Assembly: GCF_000160535.1 (NCBI RefSeq)
Contig: NZ_GG704781.1
Location: 828,582-892,581, forward strand
Direction of reading: 5' to 3'
DNA from: Hallella bergensis DSM 17361
GTDB taxonomy: Bacteria; Bacteroidota; Bacteroidia; Bacteroidales; Bacteroidaceae
Length of the DNA: 64,000 nt
Shown here: piece by piece, positions 4,051 through 48,157 of the stretch
Layout: every line of letters begins with the position of its first letter
Numbering within the stretch: position 1 is the stretch's first letter
Program-made: the position numbers and the translations under genes
Notes under the pieces: model-generated
The model's input: the letters and a program-made list of their open reading frames with translations, nothing else
Told to the model about the DNA's origin: nothing
Databases searched by the model: none

Positions 4051-4133
4051 GGGTGGTTACCAGAGTGGCCAAATGGGGCAGACTGTAAATCTGCTGGCTC
4101 TTGCCTACGGTGGTTCGAATCCATCACCACCCA
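4051..4133 (+). tRNA. tRNA-Tyr (anticodon GTA)
   Basis: An 83-nt class II tRNA. The 7-bp acceptor stem GGGTGGT (4051-4057) pairs with ACCACCC (4126-4132), with discriminator A at 4133. The anticodon stem GCAGA/TCTGC encloses the loop CTGTAAA with anticodon GTA at 4085-4087. A long variable arm and GGTTCGAATCC in the T arm follow, as expected for bacterial tRNA-Tyr. The 3' CCA is not encoded. Confidence 0.96.
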
Positions 4134-4146
4134 CATTGATTATGAT

Positions 4147-43883: not shown

Positions 43884-44666
43884 TTATTTAACATAATTAA
43901 CGTTCTTCCTCACCTTAGTAAGGTATTTCTTCATTCCTTCCGCATCCTTATGGTCGATTATTTCGAGCAGATGCTTCAGTTCTACGCGAATCTGAGTCAC
44001 CTGGTCGTGTGTATAGGGATTGAACAGCACCTCCTGCAACAGGTAATCATCTTCCGAAAGCACCCCTTTGGCTATATTCATGTGTCGTTTGAACGTTGTT
44101 CCAGGGGCATCTTGATGTTGCATCACAGCAGCAAACACAAAAGTAGAGACGAAAGGAATACTCAACGAATAGGCAACTGTCTTGTCATGTTCCTCAAATG
44201 TGTACTCATAGATGTTGAGTCCTAATTTCCGGTACAAATCCTTGAAAAAGATTCGCCCCATGTAATCGCCTTCGCTGATGATGATGGCATTCTCTTCTGT
44301 CAATTTGCTGAGGTTGGCAAATGTCGGCCCAAACATCGGGTGAGTAGACACGTATGGATGTCCGGACTGTTCATAAAACTCTTTCAGATTGGTCTTTACA
44401 GAGGCAATATCCGAAATAATGCAGTCCTTAGGAAGTATGGGCATGACTTCCTCAAAGGCCGAAATGGTGTACTTCACCGTCACAGCGTTGATGACCAATT
44501 GAGGTGCAAAGACCTTGATTTCGTCCAAAGAGGTGAAGCGTTCACAGTTGTACGTGAAGCGGAGTCGCCTGGCATCTTTCTCATATACAGCCACTTCATG
44601 CTCAAAACTCAACAAATCTATAAAAAATGAGCCCATTTTCCCGGCTCCCATCACAAGAATTTTCAT
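43884..44666 (-). CDS. tyrA: Prephenate dehydrogenase
   Basis: NAD(P)-dependent oxidation of prephenate to 4-hydroxyphenylpyruvate, the tyrosine branch. The 260-aa protein starts MKILVMGAGKMGSFFIDLLSFEHEV (dinucleotide-binding fold). It carries IISDIASVKTNL near 94-105 and HPYVSTHPMFGPTFANL near 112-128, the prephenate-binding HPMFGP motif. The C-terminal helices include YSLSIPFVSTFVFAAVM. No chorismate mutase or ACT part is fused. Last gene of the pheA-aminotransferase-DAHP synthase/CM-tyrA run, 79 bases behind the DAHP synthase gene. Confidence 0.93.
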   Translation of the reverse strand: MKILVMGAGKMGSFFIDLLSFEHEVAVYEKDARRLRFTYNCERFTSLDEIKVFAPQLVINAVTVKYTISAFEEVMPILPKDCIISDIASVKTNLKEFYEQSGHPYVSTHPMFGPTFANLSKLTEENAIIISEGDYMGRIFFKDLYRKLGLNIYEYTFEEHDKTVAYSLSIPFVSTFVFAAVMQHQDAPGTTFKRHMNIAKGVLSEDDYLLQEVLFNPYTHDQVTQIRVELKHLLEIIDHKDAEGMKKYLTKVRKNVNYVK

Positions 44667-44745: not shown

Positions 44746-45810
44746 TTATTGGTTAATGATTTCCAGCTGCTGCCTTACGCTCTCCTCATGGATAAGTTCG
44801 AAGATATGAGCTACATTCTCAGCACTTAAACCACAGAGGCTTGCCTGAGCACCTCGCTTTTCCAATATTTCGTTATAGCGACCTGCCTGGAAAACAGTCA
44901 TATTGTGTTCTTTCTTATACTGTCCTATCTCACGACAAACACGCATACGCTTTGACAATAGCTCCAATAACTGATTATCAAATTCATCGATTTGCCTGCG
45001 AAGTTGCTGTATTCCCTCAGTGGTACAAGTCTCGTCGCGCACCACAAGCAAGCTCAACACATAGTCAAGCACATCAGGCGTGAGCTGTTGTCGGGCATCA
45101 CTCCACGCACTATCTGGGTTGCAATGACTTTCTACAATAAGTCCGTCGAAACCCATGTCCATGGCTTGCTGGCAGAGCGGGGCTATCAGTTCACGGCACC
45201 CGCCAATATGACTGGGATCGCAGATAAGCGGCAGGTTGGGGAAACGACGGTGAAGTTCCATCGGAATCTGCCACATCGGGAGGTTACGATAGATTTTTCT
45301 GTCATAGCTCGAGAATCCGCGATGAATGGCTGCCATCCGCTTGATACCAGCTTGATTAATGCGTTCCATTGCGCCAATCCATAGCTCCAAGTCCGGATTA
45401 ACAGGGTTTTTCACGAATACAGGGATGTCCGTCCCCTTCAGGCTGTCGGCCACATCCTGCATCGCAAATGGGTTGGCAGCCGTTCGTGCACCAATCCAAA
45501 GGATGTCGACACCGTATTTCAAACACAACTCCACATGTTGAGGCTTGGCAACTTCGGTAGAAACCAGCATACCGGTTTCCTCCTTAACTTGTTTCAACCA
45601 GGGCAAGGCCACCTCGCCAAGTCCCTCGAAACCTCCCGGTTTGGTGCGGGGTTTCCACACTCCCGCACGAAAGATATGACAGCCTTTGTCTTTCAGCTGG
45701 CGGGCTGTTGTCATCACTTGTTCCTCCGTTTCTGCGCTGCATGGGCCTGCTATGACAAAGGGGCGCTCATTGTCGCTGGGTAAATTCAACGGTTGCAAAT
45801 CGAGTTCCAT
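44746..45810 (-). CDS. DAHP synthase / chorismate mutase fusion
   Basis: A 354-aa fusion. Residues about 1-260 are a type I-beta DAHP synthase, the first shikimate-pathway step (PEP + erythrose 4-phosphate): VIAGPCSAETEEQV, GVWKPRTKPGGFEGLGEVAL, ILWIGARTAANPFAMQDVA, VKNPVNPDLELWIGA, LPLICDPSHIGGCREL and GLIVESHCNPDSAWSDA. Residues about 268-354 are an AroQ-type chorismate mutase (LRRQIDEFDNQLLELLSKRMRVCREIGQYKKEHNMTVFQAGRY). The mutase part feeds prephenate to the dehydratase and dehydrogenase of the same operon, which lack their own mutase. It may also make the synthase feedback-sensitive (known for such fusions). Confidence 0.95.
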   Translation of the reverse strand: MELDLQPLNLPSDNERPFVIAGPCSAETEEQVMTTARQLKDKGCHIFRAGVWKPRTKPGGFEGLGEVALPWLKQVKEETGMLVSTEVAKPQHVELCLKYGVDILWIGARTAANPFAMQDVADSLKGTDIPVFVKNPVNPDLELWIGAMERINQAGIKRMAAIHRGFSSYDRKIYRNLPMWQIPMELHRRFPNLPLICDPSHIGGCRELIAPLCQQAMDMGFDGLIVESHCNPDSAWSDARQQLTPDVLDYVLSLLVVRDETCTTEGIQQLRRQIDEFDNQLLELLSKRMRVCREIGQYKKEHNMTVFQAGRYNEILEKRGAQASLCGLSAENVAHIFELIHEESVRQQLEIINQ

Positions 45811-45820
45811 ATTCTTATAA

Positions 45821-47005
45821 TTATTTGTTTTGATGATCAGATTCTTTCCATTCTTTAATTCGTGCTAATGCCTCTTCTATTTTTTCATCCTTGGCACATA
45901 GGGAAATTCGAACATATCGTCTGCCGTTTTGTCCAAAGATAAATCCCGGAGTGATAAATACTCGCGCTTCGTGAAGCACCCGTTCGGTGAGTGCCTCGGC
46001 ATCAGCATAGCCATCGGGTATCCGGCCCCATAGAAACATTCCCACCTGACGGGTATCGAATGTACAGCCAAGCTCCGTCATGATTTGCTCTGCCACGGCA
46101 CGACGACGGCGATAAGTCTCCCTGTTGTTCGTGCGGTGCCAGTCTTCGGTGTTATTCACCAGTGCCTCAGCTGCTGCAAGTTGAATGCCTCTGAACGTTC
46201 CATTCTCAATATTACTCTGTATCCTAAACATCCATGATACGTACTCACGATTGCTGATGATCATCGCCACACGCCATCCGGGCATATTGTGACTCTTCGA
46301 CATCGAATTGAGTTCTATGCAGCAATCCTTGGCTCCGGGCACTTGCATGATGCTAAGGGGATGCTCGTTCAGTATCAACGAATAGGGATTGTCGTTCACC
46401 ACCACGATATCATGACGGCGGGCAAAGTCCACAAGCTTTTCGTAGGTCTCCATCATGGCATTCCCTCCTGTCGGCATATTGGGATAGTTTGTCCACATCA
46501 CCTTCACCCGGGAGAGATCCATGCGCTCTAAGGATTCAAAATCGGGCTGCCAGCCCCTATCCTCACAGAGGTCGTAGTTCACAATCTTAGTGCCGAAAAT
46601 ACGGTTAACGGCCGTATAGGTCGGGTAACCGGGATCAGGAATGAGCACCTCGTCACCAGGATTGCAAAATGCCAGCGTCACATACATAATACCCTCCTTG
46701 GATCCAATAATGGGTCTGACTTCTGTTTCCCAATCCAGGTCTACATCGTAGACACGCTTGTAAAAGCCTGCCATGGCACGACGCAACTCCGGCAGACCGG
46801 CGGTGGGCTGATAGCCGTGAGCCGACGACATGCGCGTCACCTCACACAGTTTGTTGACAGCCTGTTCCGATGGCGGCATGTCGGGCGACCCGATTGCCAA
46901 CGAAATAATGTCCTGCCCATTGGCATTAAGCCGAGCCACTTCCTTCAGCTTTCTGCTGAAATAATATTCCTGAATGGAGTTGATCCTCTCTGCTGGTTGT
47001 ATCAT
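45821..47005 (-). CDS. PLP-dependent aminotransferase, aromatic pathway context
   Basis: A 394-aa class I/II aminotransferase. The PLP lysine lies in NSMSKSHNMPGWRVAMIIS near 230. Other hallmarks are AIGSPDMPPSEQAV, IGSKEGIMYVTLAFCNPGDEVLIPDPGYPTYTAV, WTNYPNMPTGGNA and VVVNDNPYSLI. Its place between the prephenate dehydratase and the DAHP synthase/CM genes suggests it transaminates phenylpyruvate and 4-hydroxyphenylpyruvate (inference). I start at the ATG at 47005 (MIQPAERINSIQEYYFSRKL), 7 bases after the pheA stop; a TTG six codons earlier would overlap pheA. Confidence 0.9.
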   Translation of the reverse strand: MIQPAERINSIQEYYFSRKLKEVARLNANGQDIISLAIGSPDMPPSEQAVNKLCEVTRMSSAHGYQPTAGLPELRRAMAGFYKRVYDVDLDWETEVRPIIGSKEGIMYVTLAFCNPGDEVLIPDPGYPTYTAVNRIFGTKIVNYDLCEDRGWQPDFESLERMDLSRVKVMWTNYPNMPTGGNAMMETYEKLVDFARRHDIVVVNDNPYSLILNEHPLSIMQVPGAKDCCIELNSMSKSHNMPGWRVAMIISNREYVSWMFRIQSNIENGTFRGIQLAAAEALVNNTEDWHRTNNRETYRRRRAVAEQIMTELGCTFDTRQVGMFLWGRIPDGYADAEALTERVLHEARVFITPGFIFGQNGRRYVRISLCAKDEKIEEALARIKEWKESDHQNK

Positions 47006-47012
47006 CGTATTG

Positions 47013-47915
47013 TTATTTTTCAATCATCGTCATTTCCTGTGCCAGTCCGCCACACCTTGACTCTGGGTCTGTCGCAGGCGAATTGGGAGCCTCCCGATAT
47101 TCTCCCAAGATTTTTATACCCTTGGTCAGGGGAGTAATCGCATCTATCGACTGCCTGTATCTCACTAAATCGTCGAACGTAACATCTACATAAAACAAAT
47201 ATTCCCACTCGTGCCCAACGACGGGCAGTGATTGTATCTTAGTCAGGTTGATGTCGTAGAAACTCAGAATGGTGAGCACTTTGGAAAGCGAGCCTTCAGC
47301 ATGTGGCAGCGAAAACACAAGACTTGCCTTCTCCGATCTGTCTAACGATCTCAGGAAGTCAGCCTTGCGGGGATTGCTCACCACCAGAAACCTCGTGAAG
47401 TTATGCTTATTGTCCTCGATGTGGTTTTCCAAAACCTTCAGCCCGTAGAGCTTGGCCGCGTCGGCATGGCAGATGGCAGCCCACCCCCTGCAACCTTGCT
47501 TGGCTATATATTCCGCACTTCCAGCCGTATCCTCACTCTCCACGGCTTTCATGTCAGGGTGGTTGGCAAGAAAATCCCGACACTGCATCAGGGCCACCGG
47601 ATGCGAGTGTATCTCGCGAATGGTTGCCCAATCATCCTCGGGCAAACAACAGATGCTGTGACAGATATGCAGTTTGTGTTCGCCAACAATGGTCGTATCG
47701 CTCGCCCTCAGCAGGTCGTAGTTATGAAGCAACGAGCCCGCAATGGTATTCTCGATGGCCAGCACGCCTATCATTGTGGGGTCGCGCTTGATGTTTTCGA
47801 ACACCTGTTCGAACGTGGAGCAGCAGACCAACTGCACCTGCTCGCCGTGAAAATACTGACGAGCCGCTATGTCGTGAAACGAGCCTGGTATGCCTTGTAT
47901 CGCAATTCTCTTCAT
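47013..47915 (-). CDS. pheA: Prephenate dehydratase
   Basis: Converts prephenate to phenylpyruvate in phenylalanine synthesis. The 300-aa protein starts MKRIAIQGIPGSFHDIAARQYF. The catalytic domain includes GVLAIENTIAGSLLHNYDLL near 65-84 and the TRFLVV motif with the conserved Thr-Arg-Phe (NFTRFLVVSNP near 173). A C-terminal ACT domain (about 190-275: ASLVFSLPHAEGSLSKVLTILSFYDINLTKIQSLPV) binds Phe for feedback. No chorismate mutase is fused. The reading frame extends 17 codons further up, but that part overlaps the leader terminator. A strong Shine-Dalgarno AGGAG directly abuts the ATG at 47915. Confidence 0.95.
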   Translation of the reverse strand: MKRIAIQGIPGSFHDIAARQYFHGEQVQLVCCSTFEQVFENIKRDPTMIGVLAIENTIAGSLLHNYDLLRASDTTIVGEHKLHICHSICCLPEDDWATIREIHSHPVALMQCRDFLANHPDMKAVESEDTAGSAEYIAKQGCRGWAAICHADAAKLYGLKVLENHIEDNKHNFTRFLVVSNPRKADFLRSLDRSEKASLVFSLPHAEGSLSKVLTILSFYDINLTKIQSLPVVGHEWEYLFYVDVTFDDLVRYRQSIDAITPLTKGIKILGEYREAPNSPATDPESRCGGLAQEMTMIEK

Positions 47916-47940
47916 CTCCTGATCCTTTTCCCGGGAGGAA

Positions 47941-47975
47941 CAAATAAAATCCCGCCTCATTTTCATGAAGCGGGA
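47941..47975 (-). terminator. Attenuator terminator in the pheA leader
   Basis: On the minus strand TCCCGCTTCAT (47975 to 47965) pairs with ATGAGGCGGGA (47960 to 47950). The stem is 11 bp with one U-G pair and a GAAA tetraloop, followed by TTTTATTTG. This is an intrinsic terminator placed inside the untranslated leader, 35 bases before the pheA ATG. Its left arm can instead pair with TGAAGCGGGA at 48044-48035. Confidence 0.85.
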
Positions 47976-48022
47976 CCTTTTCGTATACCTCCTAATTGTA
48001 TATCATAGTCTTAAGTTGAAAT

Positions 48023-48097
48023 CTATACGCAACTTCCCGCTTCACAATTTCTTGCAAAGTAAAAATAAAAATATCGGTAAGATGCGTATAACTTCAT
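48023..48097 (-). CDS. Phe/Tyr leader peptide of the pheA operon
   Basis: A 24-codon ORF on the minus strand, ATG at 48097 to TAG at 48023. The product begins MKLYAS, then YRYFYFYF, then ARNCEAGSCV: eight of its first fourteen residues are Tyr or Phe. It lies between a well-formed promoter and an intrinsic terminator in front of an operon that makes Phe and Tyr. Codons 18-21 (TGT GAA GCG GGA) overlap the strand TGAAGCGGGA (48044-48035), which can pair with the left arm of the terminator. A ribosome stalled at the Tyr/Phe run leaves this strand free; one that reaches the stop codon covers it. The peptide itself needs no other function. Confidence 0.85.
   Translation of the reverse strand: MKLYASYRYFYFYFARNCEAGSCV
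48035..48044 (-). promoter_or_regulatory. Antiterminator strand of the pheA attenuator
   Basis: Minus-strand TGAAGCGGGA is perfectly complementary over 10 bp to TCCCGCTTCA (47975 to 47966), the left arm of the terminator. The two pairings exclude each other. Confidence 0.8.
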
Positions 48098-48125
48098 TTT
48101 CTCAAGCTATTTACTTGTTTGCTTG

Positions 48126-48157
48126 CAAAAGTAAGATAAAATTCCGAAACTCACAAA
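48126..48157 (-). promoter_or_regulatory. Promoter of the pheA (aromatic amino acid) operon
   Basis: Minus strand: -33 TTTG (48154-48157), 20 bases, -7 TACTTTTG (48126-48133). The start of transcription would be near 48120, giving a leader of about 205 nt before pheA, unusually long compared with the 5-40 nt leaders of most genes here. Confidence 0.8.

Follow-up and report, generated by a model that had tools for sequence, protein, structure and literature searches.

What controls the aromatic amino acid genes of Hallella bergensis DSM 17361 is a question raised by a 64,000-nucleotide (nt) stretch of its contig NZ_GG704781.1 (assembly GCF_000160535.1, positions 828,582 to 892,581; hereafter the window), in which a short open reading frame (ORF) rich in Tyr and Phe codons precedes pheA on the minus strand. 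A sequence-only reading had proposed that this leader is a ribosome-mediated attenuator; that proposal is supported by conservation, codon restriction and covariation in two hairpins, the protector and the terminator, together with the anatomy of the leader, the content of the operon and the way in which the leader codons fit the genes downstream. The leader is considered, with a probability of about 0.92, to be a transcription attenuator of the trp/phe kind which would sense the charging of tRNA-Tyr and tRNA-Phe. Pfam matches bear out the genes first named behind it, namely pheA, an aminotransferase, a DAHP synthase fused to chorismate mutase, and tyrA; with this content, the operon covers the shared entry step as well as the branches to Phe and to Tyr.

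The promoter, the ORF, strands 1 to 3 and the T-rich tail all lie where they had been placed, correct to the base (Table 1). Strands 1 to 3 can pair as a 1:2 antiterminator or as a 2:3 terminator; these had been taken for the whole switch, and all three are present, but the device has four segments, the fourth being a protector hairpin (48059-48040) that was overlooked. The trp attenuator (trpL) is built of the same four segments, a protector, half of the antiterminator, a shared strand and half of the terminator, and its anatomy includes its own 1:2 protector hairpin; compared with trpL, the window leader has Tyr/Phe instead of Trp codons, other genes and another sequence. The enterobacterial phe leader (pheL; Phe_leader, RF01859) follows the same logic with a terminator before pheA, and comprises a short ORF with Phe codons and mutually exclusive hairpins; pheL reads Phe only, whereas the window leader reads Tyr and Phe together and its operon serves both branches.

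Table 1. Features of the leader and of the operon behind it, in window coordinates.
Feature	Coordinates	Strand	Basis
Promoter: TTTG (48157-48154), 20-nt spacer, TACTTTTG (48133-48126)	48126..48157	-	sequence read
Leader ORF, 24 codons + TAG, encoding MKLYASYRYFYFYFARNCEAGSCV	48023..48097	-	sequence read
Regulatory codon run Y F Y F Y F, codons 9-14	48056..48073	-	sequence read
Protector 5' arm CUUUGCAA, run end and Ala codon; analogue of trp region 1	48052..48059	-	helix conservation, RNAalifold
Protector loop GAAA	48051-48048	-	
Protector 3' arm UUGUGAAG, sharing bases with strand 1	48040..48047	-	closing-pair variation
Strand 1 TGAAGCGGGA, within codons 18-21; analogue of trp region 2	48035..48044	-	10 base pairs, perfect, to strand 2
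Strand 2 TCCCGCTTCA; analogue of trp region 3	47966..47975	-	sequence read and alignment
Strand 3 TGAGGCGGGA, terminator 3' arm; analogue of trp region 4	47950..47959	-	sequence, fold, alignment
Intrinsic terminator, stem of 11 base pairs, GAAA loop, then TTTTATTTG	47941..47975	-	fold -22.9 kcal/mol
pheA, prephenate dehydratase	47013..47915	-	Pfam PF00800, E 1.2e-57
Class I/II aminotransferase; ATG of MIQPAER the likely start	45821..47005	-	PF00155, E 1.6e-55
DAHP synthase fused to chorismate mutase	44746..45810	-	PF00793 + PF01817
tyrA-type prephenate dehydrogenase	43884..44666	-	PF02153, E 2.8e-11

Within the window, the predicted terminator fold (z -7.4) and the fold of the whole leader (-57.6 kcal/mol, z -7.9) are each equalled by 0/200 shuffles; the terminator is also picked up by a consensus scan, the number of sites of which in this region is no higher than in shuffles. 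The promoter boxes match TTTG / TAnnTTTG, the Bacteroidota promoter consensus, and are invisible to an E. coli-type promoter scan. GAAGCGGGA alone is not decisive (two matches in the window against 0.49 expected, equalled by 7/100 shuffles); the leader is held to be more than chance because it is conserved across relatives. Also overlooked in the sequence-only reading, TATACGCA (48090-48083), near the start of the leader ORF, is exactly complementary to TGCGTATA (48031-48024) at the stop codon, a pairing that would wrap the entire codon run in an outer stem.

Loci, genomes and families are labelled below with L-, G- and f-numbers; an aromatic leader is defined as at least 6 of 8 codons for Phe, Tyr or Trp (5 of 8 in a looser test) at most 330 nt upstream of pheA. 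The genus set comprises the best 80 of 380 PheA relatives from public genomes, annotated as Prevotella, Prevotellaceae, Hallella, Leyella or Bacteroidales; the Prevotella lineage is Bacteroidota, Bacteroidia, Bacteroidales. An aromatic leader lies upstream of pheA in 79/80 of these named loci, against 0/80 reverse complements and 4/1600 dinucleotide shuffles, and all 29 further genus loci carry one; 21 of the 29 share their upstream with a named locus and 8 do not, therefore pooled genus counts are inflated and counts of distinct leaders are preferred. TAnnTTTG occurs at most 75 nt upstream of the leader start in 77/80 leaders (the window plus 79 named loci; shuffled expectation 3.1), and is joined by a TTTG or TTG box in 75/80. 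The comparison with close relatives proposed in the sequence-only reading found the ORF, terminator and antiterminator kept within and past the genus, and did not refute the attenuator.

The last five codons of the run are each aromatic in 80/80 leaders (window plus 79), with TTT, TTC, TAT, TAC and TGG the only codons used; leaders were chosen for at least 5/8 aromatic codons and aligned on the end of the run, by which conservation of the run is partly a matter of construction and the five-codon restriction is not. TAC TTT at the run end is invariant in alignment A1 (the window plus 76 of the 80 named loci, leaving out L036, L090 and L105, in which no terminator was found, and L073, which has no leader; 76 distinct rows), as is expected because those codons also build the protector. 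The codons and the peptide tail bear on whether the leader peptide might stall the ribosome in response to a free aromatic amino acid instead of uncharged tRNA, in the manner of TnaC, which is an arrest peptide. The tail CEAGSCV is common in the genus, which speaks for this reading, but this tail overlies strand 1 and differs elsewhere; in L047, L071 and L074 one inserted base ahead of strand 1 shifts the tail frame so that the stop codon lands at strand 1, and strand 1 is retained (in L047 only in part). Frame-changed ASKL tails occur with strand 1 preserved. Tyr and Phe also interchange within the run, and Tyr dwindles or vanishes where pheA stands alone; arrest by the nascent peptide is considered very unlikely.

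The protector and terminator are recovered unprompted by RNAalifold; in A1, 90.5% of their cells are paired versus 39-47% for slid partners, and none of 500 shuffles attains the real counts of paired or two-sided cells or the covariation score, shuffle counts that are not to be taken as probabilities because the rows are related. The protector helix alone has 99.7% of cells paired over the 76 distinct rows, with a closing pair that is AU in 40, GC in 28, UA in 4, CG in 1, GU in 1 and unpaired in 2; the bases concerned stand at the first position of codon 16 and the last position of codon 17, therefore their match is not obviously due to selection on the peptide. The antiterminator helix has 90.2% of cells paired in the same alignment versus 37-51% in slid controls.

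Beyond the genus, PheA searches matched 126/295 order genomes and 258/296 phylum-sample genomes; the upstream was read for 89 order and 47 phylum-set loci (the best-ranked 29 and 27, the rest picked non-randomly down the lists), and 88 of the order loci are readable, L178 being cut by a contig end. The class and phylum of far loci are assigned from kinship labels and named relatives; some far pheA starts were first set by weak tblastn matches (E up to 8.3), and re-anchoring them by coordinates altered no score. Across the order the leader is found at 6/8 in 83/88 readable loci (84 at 5/8) and in 40/42 families; at 6/8 the controls give 3/88 reverse strands and 35/1760 shuffles, and at 5/8 some one in ten shuffles pass (189/1760). 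Other orders of the same class have the leader in 27/29 loci at 5/8 and 23 at 6/8; in other classes it is found in 5/18 at 5/8 (L142, L147, L150, L152 and L156; 4 at 6/8, with L150 weak), and the remaining 13 of the 18 have none. Trp codons are also present in many leaders outside the genus. The covariance model R1, built from A1, matches 78/100 genus genomes and 29/149 order genomes, and the host genome once, at pheA, as follows from its construction; the drop from genus to order indicates that the sequence diverges while the anatomy stays. Weak R1 matches at L267-L271 were dropped, none having a convincing aromatic leader before an aromatic gene; another weak match, L272 (G204:C92), contains by eye a short ORF, MKAYFYTLLLHGELSELIF, directly upstream of a leuA-like gene and is perhaps a Leu leader.

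A terminator is found in 199/204 distinct leaders, and it is here that a second explanation can be weighed, namely that pheA is under translational control and the hairpins merely alter access to its start. A few loci (L036, L090) have a weak T run after the hairpin, as would suit such control, but a hairpin with a T-rich tail is present in those 199 leaders, and in the window the stem ends 35 nt ahead of the pheA start; translational control is regarded as extremely unlikely.

The transcription attenuator would depend on the position of the ribosome relative to strand 1. Among loci whose strand-1 pairing beats 95% of shuffles, the medians of the three sets put 8.5-11 nt between the last aromatic codon and the beginning of strand 1, and 14-21 nt between that beginning and the stop codon (19 nt in the window); given the size of the ribosome footprint, this spacing suggests that strand 1 can be covered by a ribosome at the stop and is free when the ribosome stalls. 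Transcription would start some 20-25 nt before the leader ORF, judging by the promoter boxes, with a translating ribosome trailing the polymerase. If Tyr and Phe are plentiful, the ribosome would reach the stop and cover strand 1, so that the 2:3 terminator forms and transcription halts before pheA; if either is short, the ribosome would stall in YRYFYFYF, on the 5' arm of the protector, leaving strand 1 free to capture strand 2 before strand 3 is synthesized, with read-through into pheA-aminotransferase-DAHP synthase/chorismate mutase-tyrA.

This sequence of events was modeled co-transcriptionally, on a transcript that ends ahead of strand 3 and in which the bases under the ribosome are kept from pairing. 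In the window the antiterminator is predicted with a probability of 0.75 when the ribosome is at the run end, 0.0003 when it is at the stop and 0.017 when there is none; over 84 distinct genus leaders, the predicted medians are 0.86, 0.00 and 0.83, respectively. With strand 3 absent, the stalled antiterminator is at least 0.5 in 84/84 genus, 82/84 order and 29/31 phylum distinct leaders, and the at-stop antiterminator is at most 0.2 in 82/84, 68/84 and 28/31. The earlier proposal that a stalled ribosome frees strand 1 and lets 1:2 form thus agrees with the model before strand 3 is made; in the full leader at equilibrium, however, the terminator is predicted to win.

That equilibrium result is one of several that weigh against the attenuator. 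For the full leader at equilibrium with the ribosome stalled, the predicted probability of the terminator is 0.98 in the window, with a genus median of 0.88, and it is at most 0.2 in only 18/84 distinct genus leaders; when the strand-1 region is shuffled, 0/105 genus leaders are at most 0.2 versus 24/105 real ones (duplicates included). The switch therefore has to be kinetic and needs co-transcriptional capture, a design that would rely, like that of classical attenuators, on the order in which the strands are made; full-length equilibrium folding was dropped as proof of the switch, as it fails for most leaders and the co-transcriptional version discriminates. The ribosome-free antiterminator is predicted in most genus leaders (the median of 0.83) and not in the window (0.017). 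The pairing of strand 1 is better than 95% of shuffles in 78/84 genus loci, but in only 58/84 order and 22/31 phylum-set loci. The antiterminator shows no covariation signal in A1, its score being reached by 245/500 shuffles and its pair types by 497/500, a lack which might be expected because the strand is tied to two partners; for the protector and terminator, the number of two-sided pairs is reached by 52/500 shuffles and the pair types by 36/500. L073 has no leader, and no terminator was found in L007, L036, L090, L105 and L150. Some of these loci may represent decay or loss: strand 3 of L105 is degenerate, the T run of L036 and L090 is poor, and L073 is leaderless. Separately, the rule that codons follow genes is broken by L150, which is operonic with a weak, Phe-only ORF (5/8, TTG start), and by L129 and L159, which are operonic with no leader. 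By eye, the upstream of the leaderless pheA in L159 resembles the end of aroA, by which this pheA may be internal to a larger operon.

Elsewhere the codons of the run follow the downstream genes closely. All leaders of at least 6/8 with readable gene order, 109/109 in the genus (88 distinct, window included) and 46/46 in the order and phylum sets, either contain Tyr and have an aminotransferase, DAHP synthase or TyrA beside pheA, or are one of three stand-alone cases; in a later, unselected downstream set, 59/59 leaders are operonic with Tyr in the run, the poorest (L222) having seven Phe and a single Tyr. Seven pheA genes that stand alone are preceded by a leader. Five of these have no Tyr in the run (L135, L138, L139, L207 and L214, of families f29, f19 and f39, at least 6/8), Tyr occurring only outside it in the tail of L135 and L139 and at codon 3 of L207; the other two (G433 and G248 of family f99, 5/8 only) have one Tyr with Phe dominant, and for G248, with some 240 nt read downstream, the separation of pheA follows from DAHP synthase genes on other contigs. 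Three further pheA genes outside the company of these neighbors (L133, L137 and L223) have no leader.

In 7/7 genomes with a readable start (G177, G386, G291, G257, G167, G248 and G433), the displaced operon carries a Tyr-containing leader of its own, a count that leaves out G187 and G393, in which the DAHP synthase lies at a contig end, and G405. The operon likewise has a Tyr-containing leader in G029, in which no pheA was matched, and in G072 and G097, in which pheA lies elsewhere with no R1 match there. The split operons are a natural codon-swap experiment, in which Tyr codons dwindle or vanish once the leader is no longer followed by tyrA, the aminotransferase and DAHP synthase.

Two aromatic ORFs stand upstream of pheA in 22 loci by a loose test (examples are L119, L122, L124, L128, L134, L217 and L220); a terminator follows each ORF in 19/21 of those checked, L161 being left out and L114 and L125 being the exceptions. 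Tandem Tyr/Phe/Trp ORFs also precede the aminotransferase-DAHP synthase operon split from pheA in L293 and L294. Two short ORFs in one leader region are likewise described for the tandem attenuators of Salmonella mgtCBR (PMC3641672, covered in part); those control different genes, whereas the tandem modules here both read aromatic codons. It is likely that an ancestral aromatic attenuator governs the pheA-tyrA operon in most of Bacteroidia, counting Tyr and Phe (often Trp) jointly, with tandem duplications and with its codons partitioned when the operon splits.

A metabolite riboswitch or T-box would likewise be a conserved, structured 5' element ahead of a biosynthetic operon; however, the conserved core here is the codon run, no Rfam T-box matches in the window at the gathering score, a tRNA alone reaches that score there, and no family does so in 15 further loci. 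This is the least probable of the explanations considered. At the element itself, neither the window nor the 15 further loci give any Rfam family at cut-off, thus the element probably goes unannotated. Phe_leader has no match in the window leader; in six loci searched at a lax threshold, its best scores are 34.1 bits (L119) and 27.0 bits (L114), the cut-off being 55. Bacteroid-trp (RF01692) is of the same phylum as the window element but has Trp codons and trp genes; it has no match in the window or in the host's own genome, and the window leader has no Trp codon. Among 30 relatives it matches 4, 2 of them above cut-off; one match (L252 1521-1574), upstream of trpB, contains by eye an ORF, MNRMNNNIWWWRNSRFK, with three consecutive Trp codons, a single example.

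The Rfam search also bears on whether the region chiefly yields a short RNA, or marks where an upstream transcript ends, with the ORF incidental. Terminated leaders would resemble small RNAs (sRNAs) in RNA sequencing, and the window has a weak match to the sRNA family BTnc231 (11.8 bits, E 6.5); against this, the promoter box, ORF and terminator recur in constant order and the codons of the run vary among aromatic codons only, by which a short-RNA source is judged extremely improbable. BTnc231 (RF04180), a weak full-length match in the window, was dropped because its matches in 8 genomes searched, 7 of them with a known place of pheA, are not at pheA; other weak Rfam matches (rli38, mir-787 and the like) lie below cut-off and are taken as chance.

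Vitreschak and colleagues (2004) reportedly predicted some attenuators in Bacteroidetes/Chlorobi. The sequence-only reading knew of no described case of this kind in Bacteroidota; this stands insofar as the covered passages of PMC9723704 (2021, Flavobacterium psychrophilum) contain no Tyr/Phe leader, but it has to be qualified, since they describe a structured 5' element ahead of pheA that is conserved among other genera of Flavobacteriaceae and has no Rfam match, along with 'strong clues' for leader-peptide attenuation of amino-acid operons, and since Bacteroid-trp is in Rfam and is tabulated in PMC2864571 (covered in part). The pheA element of PMC9723704 is probably the flavobacterial form of the window element; the covered passages give for it no leader peptide, codons, switch structure or range outside Flavobacteriaceae. 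Leader-like short ORFs in 5' untranslated regions of B. thetaiotaomicron are described in PMC7366714, in the covered text of which pheA does not occur, and the main text of PMC2965389 has no word starting bacteroid, flavobacteri or pheA. The literature searched, with most subscription papers and all supplements outside the search, holds no description of a Bacteroidota Tyr/Phe pheA leader, PMC9723704 being the nearest; within the same limits, the four-segment switch, the class spread, the tandem modules and the codon partition are not described. The kind of device is classical; new are its dual or triple aromatic reading, its class-wide spread and the partition of codons after operon splits.

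Attenuation by a leader peptide requires that a ribosome follow the polymerase closely; transcription-translation coupling outside Proteobacteria is debated, and Bacteroidota are also unusual in how they initiate translation. A conserved Tyr/Phe attenuator would directly report such coupling, and aromatic starvation, in a major gut phylum; if true, its class-wide persistence implies tight transcription-translation coupling in the leaders of these bacteria. The device precedes these genes in most relatives sampled and would be a ready test of how protein synthesis is coupled to gene control in this large group of bacteria. The sole tRNA found in the window is a tRNA-Tyr (GTA) at 4051-4134, which lies 44 kb off and is probably unrelated to the leader.

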